Below, piece by piece: positions 8,315 to 47,500 of a DNA stretch of 64,000 bases (positions are counted from its first letter, which is position 1; every line of letters starts with the position of its first letter). Source of the stretch: Tistrella mobilis KA081020-065 (GTDB lineage: Bacteria > Pseudomonadota > Alphaproteobacteria > Tistrellales > Tistrellaceae). The notes under the pieces are model-generated. The model saw only the letters and a program-made list of their open reading frames with translations. It was not told the origin of the DNA and did no database searches. Made by a program: the position numbers and the translations under genes. Location of the stretch: assembly GCF_000264455.2 (NCBI RefSeq), contig NC_017956.1:3454001-3518000 (forward strand). Reading direction: 5' to 3'.

Positions 8315-8364
8315 CGCCACCACTCATCGCACACCCGGCTGCCCCGGCAGCCGGTCCTGCCTGC

Positions 8365-8398
8365 GACGCCCCGGCCTTCTGGTGAAGGCCGGGGCGTC
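8365..8398 (+). terminator. Terminator hairpin after amtB
   Basis: A perfect 15-bp stem (8365-8379 with 8384-8398) with a TGGT loop, rich in GC, about 50 bases after amtB. The following CGCTCTT gives only a weak T-tract. Confidence 0.7.
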
Positions 8399-34851: not shown

Positions 34852-34879
34852 TTGACAGCCCGGCGCATCGGTATACCAT
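34852..34879 (+). promoter_or_regulatory. Sigma-70-type promoter of the ACT-gene leader
   Basis: TTGACA (34852-34857), 16-base spacer, TACCAT (34874-34879). The expected transcription start, about seven bases further, falls at or next to the ATG of leader ORF 1 at 34887, so that ORF would be leaderless. Confidence 0.6.
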
Positions 34880-34886
34880 CGCGGAC

Positions 34887-34952
34887 ATGAGCATGATCGG
34901 ACATCGCCATACGCGCGGTTCTGCGCGAATTACGGGCCCGGCCCTCTTCTGA
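34887..34952 (+). CDS. Leader peptide 1 (21 codons) upstream of ACT-domain gene
   Basis: A 21-codon frame, ATG 34887 to TGA 34952, product MSMIGHRHTRG followed by SARITGPALF. It begins where transcription is predicted to start, with no ribosome-binding site, as for the leaderless trpL-type leaders known in alphaproteobacteria. Its last codons and stop run into a GC hairpin (34937-34962) followed by TTTT. A second leader ORF 90 bases downstream ends in a closely related octapeptide. I infer an attenuation or sensing leader; no homologue is claimed. Confidence 0.5.
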   Translation: MSMIGHRHTRGSARITGPALF

Positions 34953-34967
34953 GGGGGCCGGGGGTTT
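34937..34967 (+). terminator. Attenuator-like hairpin 1
   Basis: CCCGGCCCTC pairs with GAGGGGGCCGGG around TTCT (one or two bulged G), followed by GGTTTTCCCG. The stop codon of leader ORF 1 lies in the loop and the start of the 3' arm, so a translating ribosome would occupy this structure. Confidence 0.6.
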
Positions 34968-35041
34968 TCCCGTCTTGCGATGAGGGTCGCTGCCGGCTTG
35001 CGGCGCCTGCGGTCCGCCACCAGATCGATGCGTTGGTCCCG

Positions 35042-35152
35042 ATGACCGTTTCTGTCTTCGTCTCCCCCCGCAGCTGCGTCTCTGTCCGACACCGCCGGCG
35101 TCACACTGCATGCTGGACCGGTCTTCGAATTATCGGCCCGGTTCTCCACTGA
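35042..35152 (+). CDS. Leader peptide 2 (36 codons) upstream of ACT-domain gene
   Basis: A 36-residue frame from ATG 35042 to TGA 35152, beginning MTVSVFVSPRSCVSVRH and ending TGLRIIGPVLH. The ending RI-I-GP-V-L-x-stop mirrors RI-T-GP-A-L-x-stop of leader 1, although the rest of the two peptides differs. It is rich in Val, Arg and Ser and includes consecutive Ile-Ile near the end. The stop lies in the loop of a perfect hairpin. No good ribosome-binding site precedes it. Real translation is an inference from the shared ending and placement. Confidence 0.42.
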   Translation: MTVSVFVSPRSCVSVRHRRRHTACWTGLRIIGPVLH

Positions 35153-35160
35153 GAACCGGG
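35137..35160 (+). other. Attenuator-like hairpin 2
   Basis: A perfect 10-bp stem CCCGGTTCTC/GAGAACCGGG with loop CACT contains the stop codon of leader ORF 2. No T-tract follows, so it may be an anti-terminator, pause or ribosome-sensing element rather than a terminator. Confidence 0.55.
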
Positions 35161-35297
35161 AGACCAGATGACGGCATGCGATATCCCCTGCCCGCCCGTG
35201 ACGGTTGCGGCAGGCGGATGTCGGGACAGAGACCGTGACCGGAGAACGGCCCCCGACAACAGCAGGGCCCCGGTTACCGACGACGAGGACCGCCCCC

Positions 35298-35819: not shown

Positions 35820-36728
35820 CTAATCGGCATCAGCCAGACCCAGCCGTCGGCGGATGCCGGCCGGCGTGACACCCGCCTCGCGCAGATCGGCAAGCCGCAC
35901 GCCGGGCGTGCGCTTGGCCAGCCGCCGCCCCTGATCGTCGGTCAACAGGCGATGATGCCGCCAGACCGGCACCGGCCAACCCATCAGCGCCTGCAGCAGG
36001 CGGTGGAGATGGGTCGCCGCCTCAAGGTCGCGGCCGCGGATGATGTGGGTGATGCCCTGCAATGCGTCGTCATGCGTGACCGCGAGGTGATAGCTGGCCG
36101 GCACGTCCTTGCGCGCCAGCACCACGTCGCCGTGAATGGCGGGCGTCGCCTTCACCGGCCCCGCATCCATATCGGTCCAGCTGAGGTCCGAGGCGACAGT
36201 CCCCAGGGCGGCCAGCGCTGCCGCCATGTCCAGCCTGAGGGCGTGCGGGTGCCCCGCCGTCAGCCTGGTCGCACGCGCGGCAGGCGTCAGCCTGCGGCAG
36301 GTGCCGGGGTAGAGCGGGCCGTCGGGTCCCGCAGGCGGGGGGCCGTGGGGCGCCGAGGCACTGGCCGCAATCTCGACCTCGATCTCCGACCGGGTGCAGA
36401 AGCAGGGATAGACCAGATCCCGTGCCGTCAACTCGTCCAGGACGGTGCGATAGACGTCGAAATGCTCCGATTGCCGGCGCACCTCGCCATCCCAGCTCAG
36501 CCCCAGCCAGTCCAGGTCCCGGAAGATCGCATCGACGAATTCGGGGCGGCACCGGGTGGTGTCGATATCTTCGATCCGCAGGATGAAACGTCCGCCATGC
36601 GCCCGGGCGTAATCGTGAGACAGCATCGCCGATAATGCGTGGCCCAGATGCAGCAGCCCCGTCGGGCTCGGCGCGAAGCGGGTGACCGGCATCACGGCCG
36701 GGGGCGCGGGATCGATGGTCTGGCTCAT
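35820..36728 (-). CDS. gluQ: Glutamyl-Q tRNA(Asp) synthetase
   Basis: A 302-residue paralogue of the catalytic half of glutamyl-tRNA synthetase that attaches glutamate to queuosine in tRNA(Asp). It starts with the class-I core VTRFAPSPTGLLHLGHALSA, FILRIEDIDTTRC and has the zinc-type CFCTRSEIE with a later Cys-Arg-Arg, but no anticodon-binding domain. The second signature is LAKRTPGVRL in place of KMSKR, as usual for GluQ-RS. It is divergent from the 37-42 kb gene cluster. Confidence 0.92.
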   Translation of the reverse strand: MSQTIDPAPPAVMPVTRFAPSPTGLLHLGHALSAMLSHDYARAHGGRFILRIEDIDTTRCRPEFVDAIFRDLDWLGLSWDGEVRRQSEHFDVYRTVLDELTARDLVYPCFCTRSEIEVEIAASASAPHGPPPAGPDGPLYPGTCRRLTPAARATRLTAGHPHALRLDMAAALAALGTVASDLSWTDMDAGPVKATPAIHGDVVLARKDVPASYHLAVTHDDALQGITHIIRGRDLEAATHLHRLLQALMGWPVPVWRHHRLLTDDQGRRLAKRTPGVRLADLREAGVTPAGIRRRLGLADAD

Positions 36729-47238: not shown

Positions 47239-47351
47239 TCCGGTTCCTCCCTCTCTCGGTCTTGATCGACCCGGCCCGCACCGGCAGCGAGGGGAGAGGT
47301 TCCGAAACGCCGTCTCCCCCGCACCGCATGGGTTGCAGGGGCCGGCCATCC

Positions 47352-47455
47352 GCACCATCCCTCCGCCAGTATGAACTGGATCAGGTTCTTCGGGTCCCTG
47401 CGCTGCCTTGCGGCCCGGCAGAATCTCAGCCCCTTGTCGGGACACCCCTGGTGAG
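47352..47455 (-). ncRNA. TPP riboswitch (thi box)
   Basis: On the minus strand the transcript reads CACCAGGGGTGTCCCG, then GGGGCTGAGATTCTGCCG, ACCCGAAGAACCTGATC and CAGTTCATACTGGCGGAGGG, which are the helix-1/2 GGGGTG, the CTGAGA pyrimidine-sensor and the ACCUGAUC pyrophosphate-sensor of the thiamine-pyrophosphate aptamer in correct order. It lies about 110 bases before thiM and would shut off thiM-thiE when thiamine pyrophosphate is plentiful. Confidence 0.96.
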
Positions 47456-47500
47456 GTCTTCAGACTGCGCGCCGCCCGGGCGCGGTGTCAACAGCGCCGA

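Follow-up and report, generated by a model that had tools for sequence, protein, structure and literature searches.

Paired CGA-ATT-A leaders ahead of a small ACT-domain gene in Tistrella mobilis and a putative family of isoleucine attenuators in Alphaproteobacteria

What are two short open reading frames (ORFs) with similar endings doing, one behind the other, in front of a small ACT-domain gene of Tistrella mobilis KA081020-065? The initial annotation of the stretch analysed here (64,000 nucleotides of contig NC_017956.1; hereafter the window) had read them as a duplicated ribosome-sensing element for a branched-chain amino acid or proline that controls the ACT gene. The coordinates of the two ORFs, the folds that carry their stop codons and the CGA-ATT-A that they share were all confirmed (Table 1). 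In both, CGA-ATT-A leads into a CCCGG...CCGGG hairpin of 10 bp whose loop contains or adjoins the stop; the 5′ arm begins four bases past CGAATTA, and the two heptamers lie exactly 200 bases apart. Hairpin 1 folds with −22.6 kcal/mol (z −3.7) and hairpin 2 with −17.5 kcal/mol (z −4.7). Hairpin 1 has two pairing registers; the alternative one contains 10 pairs and leaves all of TTCTGA unpaired, and therefore places the stop in the loop. The stop of hairpin 2 spans both loop and stem. A promoter-like site (one found, 0.1 expected) ends 7 bases 5′ of the ATG of ORF 1. Because the predicted start falls about at this ATG, ORF 1 is probably leaderless, with its AUG at the 5′ end of the transcript; ORF 2 lies farther along the same predicted transcript.

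Table 1. Positions in the window of the leader features and of the gene behind them
Feature	Positions	Strand	Remarks
Promoter-like site TTGACA-16-TACCAT, sigma-70-like	34852-34879	+	predicted start ~34886-34887
Leader ORF 1, MSMIGHRHTRGSARITGPALF	34887-34952	+	21 codons plus TGA; kept in sister species; family frame statistics
CGA-ATT-A, element 1 (Arg codon, specifier Ile codon ATT, conserved A)	34926-34932	+	
Hairpin 1 (CCCGGCCCTC / GGGGGCCGGG), then GGTTTTCCC	34937-34962	+	TGA in or beside loop
Leader ORF 2, MTVSVFVSPRSCVSVRHRRRHTACWTGLRIIGPVLH	35042-35152	+	36 codons plus TGA; kept in sister species
Possible outer helix GGTCT / AGACC around CGAATTA and hairpin 2	35120-35165	+	50-nt fold
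CGA-ATT-A, element 2	35126-35132	+	
Hairpin 2 (CCCGGTTCTC / GAGAACCGGG)	35137-35160	+	10 pairs; TGA at loop-stem border
Small ACT-domain gene, 106 aa	35298-35618	+	similarity to ACT proteins behind the same element

Both frames are retained in a sister species, as are the two hairpins. The promoter hexamers are identical there, a T-G pair of hairpin 1 has become T-A with pairing preserved, and ORF 2 differs by an 18-base (six-codon) in-frame indel, the element spacing being 182 rather than 200 bases. Because the sister species retains these features and copies occur in many other alphaproteobacteria, the paired leaders are, by this comparison, more than a product of chance. Retention of frames and hairpins in relatives, which the initial annotation had named as its check, was thus found both in the sister species and in the family copies.

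To define this family, we scanned 387 alphaproteobacterial genomes with a codon-degenerate pattern for R-I-[I/T]-G-P-[A/V]-[L/F]-x-stop, allowing one mismatch. All 16 matches that lay before ileS or ACT genes in fetched loci used CGA-ATT, and 15 of the 17 remaining matches did not; in this window, CGA makes up about 10% of Arg codons and ATT about 10% of Ile codons. The named scan returned 58 loci, including ones in Azospirillum, Skermanella, Roseomonas, Methylobacterium, Microvirga, Alsobacter, Maritimibacter and Palleronia. A 36-nt covariance model found matches in 80 of the 387 genomes, and in a phylum-wide sample of 199 genomes, the 8 with matches were all Alphaproteobacteria; in the searches made, and only there, the element is confined to this class. 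Inspected matches stood overwhelmingly upstream of ileS or of a small ACT-domain gene, with ilvA as a further target and leuA as a rare one. Among 50 ileS upstream regions examined, 13 contained the heptamer CGAATTA and a few more contained close variants (CGAATTC, CGAATC, TCGATTA). The element is absent upstream of this genome's own ileS, and many alphaproteobacterial ileS genes lack it. At locus L262 (genome G042, before ileS), the hairpin sequence is wholly replaced (GCGTCGGC/GCCGACGC), with CGA-ATT-A and an in-frame TGA in the loop retained. A weaker element-like match (L192, G000:C2:654743-654778; MWMMCGTRRISCPA), with CGA-ATT-A and a hairpin containing the stop, precedes a P-loop kinase-like gene; two related genomes also match. 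Neither the leader region nor 12 related loci had a relevant match in Rfam at gathering or at relaxed thresholds, and T-box riboswitch identity was rejected because neither a T-box nor any other Rfam leader model matched there. The sole Rfam match in the window is a TPP riboswitch (47340-47459, minus strand, 64.3 bits).

Frame statistics bear on whether the leaders are translated. An upstream ATG in frame with the CGA and without an intervening stop was present in 91/91 dereplicated copies (the two alternative frames gave 11 and 24). An in-frame stop 5-14 codons past the CGA, usually after seven or eight codons, was present in 81 of the 91. The signal persisted in a frame-blind set of 48 copies found by the covariance model only, with no stop demanded: all 48 had the in-frame ATG, and 38 had an in-hairpin stop, versus 3 and 3 in the other frames. 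All three stop codons were used in this set (TGA 25, TAA 14, TAG 9). Isoleucine made up 9.5% of leader residues but only 2.5-2.9% of those in the two alternative frames; most often it was encoded by the rare ATA. On this comparative evidence, and without ribosome data, we conclude that the short leader ORFs are translated. About 10% of leaders read through the hairpin and mostly end about 30 codons after the CGA, near or overlapping the downstream start, which suggests translational coupling in some lineages; loci L142, L144, L156, L163, L172 and L204 have leaders of this kind.

The initial annotation had also held that the two ORFs share a fixed octapeptide end. The similarity is present, but the peptide is not fixed: the Gly and the last residues differ between lineages, and RISRP, RITAP, RISNP, RISCP and RIIDP all occur. 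By contrast, in 86 of 87 copies the hairpin started at offset 11, counted from the C of CGA. The lower five pairs of the stem were nearly invariant and the upper five variable, with pairing kept at 85-95%, and the cell count of two-sided stem changes lay above all 500 shuffles. As far as the sequences can tell, the conserved unit is therefore the codon pair plus the hairpin at fixed spacing, not the peptide; because the Gly and last residues vary while CGA-ATT, spacing and hairpin persist, the shared octapeptide appears to be mostly a by-product. That residues are less constrained than codons indicates decoding of a fixed codon pair near the hairpin. CGA is read by inosine and NUU by a G34 tRNA, both through wobble pairing, and we infer that such decoding could make the site sensitive to tRNA charging.

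We then considered whether the second codon matches the downstream gene. It was ATT in 59/59 ileS elements tallied, before ilvA and before most ACT genes. When other specifiers were sought with a model blind to this codon, true elements again carried ATT, the exceptions being two genomes of one family that have CTT ahead of leuA. Several weak matches of this model were rejected as ordinary terminators or coding matches, including one in the window (8364-8394), which lies 3′ of an ammonium-transporter-like gene. One genus has, upstream of an ACT gene, a leader of 54-56 codons that combines two elements in a single ORF: CGA-CTT-A with a hairpin and, 48 bases on, CGA-GTT-A with a hairpin; an additional CGA-ATT-A element follows about 1.3 kb beyond, with a second ACT gene behind it in one genome. 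This arrangement is seen at L325 and L176, the second ACT gene being that of L325, and the ACT paralogues at these loci are apparently sorted by amino acid. One of the leuA genomes (G248) and one of the genomes with the Leu+Val leader (G030) also have CGA-ATT-A before ileS. With few independent events, an exchangeable specifier codon is strongly suggested by these comparisons but not proven: the leuA evidence comes from one bacterial family and the Leu/Val leader from one genus.

Tandem use is not restricted to the window. In 12 of the 15 Azospirillum-type genomes having one particular ilvA copy, two CGAATTA heptamers 175-229 bases apart precede it; the second ilvA copy of the same genomes had no element where examined. 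Because pairs are found in the window, in its relatives and before the Azospirillum-type ilvA, tandem pairing is, in the genomes compared, a recurring arrangement. Between the paired ilvA elements (L275-L289) lies a block of about 100 bases that is almost as conserved as the elements and whose reading frames are not kept; elsewhere, only scattered weak matches to it were found.

The ACT protein of the window shares 29-46% identity with ACT proteins encoded downstream of the element at other loci. For this family (A6), single-sequence Pfam searches gave sub-threshold matches only, and profile comparison identified acetolactate synthase small subunits as the nearest solved structures (2fgc, E 0.008). 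Elsewhere, ACT genes have among their neighbours ilvA (L054) or a citramalate-synthase-like gene (L165), identifications made by eye from sequence. A likely role of the protein, which we infer, is to sense branched-chain amino acid synthesis or to act as one of its regulatory subunits. In the window, a class I Glu/Gln-type tRNA-synthetase-like gene, possibly gluQ (35820-36728, minus strand), converges on the ACT gene.

Taken together, the comparisons support the duplicated sensing element that the initial annotation had inferred, and within its range of amino acids they point to isoleucine: ileS and ilvA have the same element in front of them, the leaders are enriched in Ile, a CTT second codon stands before leuA, and the duplicated arrangement recurs before ilvA in Azospirillum. 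We put the probability at roughly two in three that each element works as an attenuator through which the ribosome reads the supply of a branched-chain amino acid, here isoleucine, and that the two in series control the ACT gene. We also somewhat favour a general form of this reading, a modular codon-programmed attenuator in which CGA-NUU-A plus hairpin is the module, AUU, CUU or GUU sets the amino acid, and modules are chained to tighten or combine the response. Chained forms observed are Ile+Ile before ACT and ilvA genes, and Leu+Val within one ORF before an ACT gene. The frame, the hairpin, the fixed spacing, the Ile codon bias and the match of specifier to gene are supported comparatively; regulation itself, the direction of the response and an action of the hairpin mainly by stopping transcription are inferred without expression data.

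In the proposed mechanism, the short leader ORF would be translated, the first from an AUG at the transcript 5′ end. Once CGA occupies the P site and AUU the A site, the leading edge of the ribosome would lie over the foot of the GC-rich hairpin. When charged tRNA-Ile is scarce, the ribosome would pause at AUU and hold the hairpin open, and downstream expression would be on; when it is plentiful, the ribosome would reach the in-hairpin stop and depart, the hairpin would close, and expression would fall. We modelled this occlusion with a ribosome footprint reaching to +15, a value assumed from general knowledge. With CGA in the P site, predicted stem pairing fell from 0.96 to 0.00 in element 1 and from 1.00 to 0.25 in element 2; coverage to +9 only, as for a ribosome two codons upstream, left both hairpins intact. 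The outer helix is present in only some family members, and direct occlusion was modelled in place of an antiterminator. Some features count against attenuation: most hairpins in GC-rich genomes lack a U-run, neither a universal antiterminator nor masking of the start site was found, many ileS genes lack the element, and there is a single fixed specifier codon, fewer than in classical attenuators, although Ile is also enriched upstream of it.

How a closed hairpin would lower expression may differ between genomes. The hairpin itself was always present; a run of at least four T followed it in 27% of copies in genomes below 60% GC, compared with 4.6% of control windows, and in 3.5% of copies in GC-rich genomes; hairpin 2 of the window has no U-run. 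An intrinsic terminator throughout the family was not supported, as T-runs were enriched only in the AT-richer genomes. Since T-runs are found mainly below 60% GC, intrinsic termination is plausible there, and elsewhere the hairpin may act by another route, perhaps with Rho.

The closest rival retains the sensing leader and moves its output to translation: the leader would be coupled to the downstream gene, and stalling would act not on transcription but on reinitiation or on how accessible the start is. The roughly one in ten leaders that pass the hairpin and overlap or nearly reach the downstream start fit such coupling better than they fit attenuation. Most leaders, however, stop inside the hairpin, tens of bases 5′ of that start, and predicted accessibility of the start region hardly differs between the free and the stalled state (0.445 versus 0.489). 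Sequestration of the start by the hairpin was rejected as a general effect on the same values, and we regard translational control as less likely than an action on transcription. Considerably less plausible is a signal at the RNA or DNA level for which the overlap with the ORF is incidental, such as a processing site or a protein-binding site beside the hairpin. CGAATTA is indeed nearly invariant at the nucleotide level, GA/AUU is similar to an RNase E site, and some family members can pair CGAA with a UUCG farther along; against such a signal stand the frame and stop statistics, the Ile enrichment, the use of all three stop codons, and the ATT/CTT/GTT switch in step with gene function. Conservation of CGAATTA merely for downstream pairing was rejected: TTCG is enriched downstream of the element (36 seen, 16 expected), yet this holds in only 31 of 75 copies. 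Arrest peptides conserve residues, not codons. Least probable is a nascent-peptide arrest of the TnaC or SecM type, in which an R-I-x-G-P-[AV]-L end would stall the ribosome from within the exit tunnel. Free isoleucine might then be what is sensed, in the way that TnaC senses tryptophan. R, I and P do recur, and the stop usually follows seven or eight codons after CGA, but the Gly position also holds R, D, C, S, A, N, V and others, the third residue shows no constraint, the last residues track the hairpin sequence, the synonymous positions of CGA-ATT stay fixed where they should be free, and the CTT switch before leuA is better explained by tRNA sensing.

The favoured reading, ribosome-mediated attenuation, is a working principle already known. 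Like the classical proteobacterial attenuators (trp, his, ilv, pheST), the family has a short leader ORF that includes codons for the amino acid under control, a hairpin beside the stop, and biosynthetic and tRNA-synthetase genes downstream. It differs in having one fixed specifier within a nearly invariant CGA-NTT-A instead of a run of regulatory codons, a fixed 11-nt spacing, and one hairpin that holds the stop, with no general antiterminator or U-run found. The pyrBI attenuator of E. coli resembles it in that the leader ORF enters the terminator hairpin and the ribosome itself blocks the hairpin; pyrBI senses RNA polymerase coupling (UTP supply) and has no specifier codon. Synthetase attenuators have reportedly been surveyed by Lopatovskaya et al. 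in 2010. In Caulobacter crescentus, ribosome profiling identified a translated ileS leader CDS (CCNA_03934), and an ilvBN leader is known as well (PMC4117421). The former is, like the family, a translated leader before an alphaproteobacterial ileS; it serves there as a negative control only, and the text of that paper gives no motif or mechanism for it. Actinobacterial ilvB leaders comprise ORFs with Ile, Val or Leu codons that overlap candidate terminator hairpins, and in LEU elements a pseudoknot joins Leu codons to the Shine-Dalgarno sequence of leuA (PMC1262725). The ileS T-boxes treated in the same paper also use a specifier codon, but bind tRNA without translation, unlike the family; none of these three is described with CGA-NTT-A and a hairpin. 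The ilvB-II and ilvB-OMG motifs, conserved uORFs rich in branched-chain residues before ilvB and proposed to be attenuators (PMC10272879), involve other genes and taxa, and no Rfam model matched the leader region or the related loci compared. Our literature search found no description of a CGA-NTT-A plus hairpin motif, although an earlier one cannot be excluded. A widespread alphaproteobacterial family of putative switches, built on a codon-pair-plus-hairpin cassette with an exchangeable specifier and tandem use, thus appears to be undescribed.

If this reading is true, one compact cassette would account for the tuning of isoleucyl-tRNA synthetase, threonine deaminase and a small ACT protein in many alphaproteobacteria, and unnamed ACT genes would gain a role in the control of branched-chain amino acids. 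The fixed geometry of one specifier, one spacing and one hairpin would let the control of RNA folding by a paused ribosome be tested cleanly in a natural system, and the switch among Ile, Leu and Val codons would permit a direct one-codon experiment.
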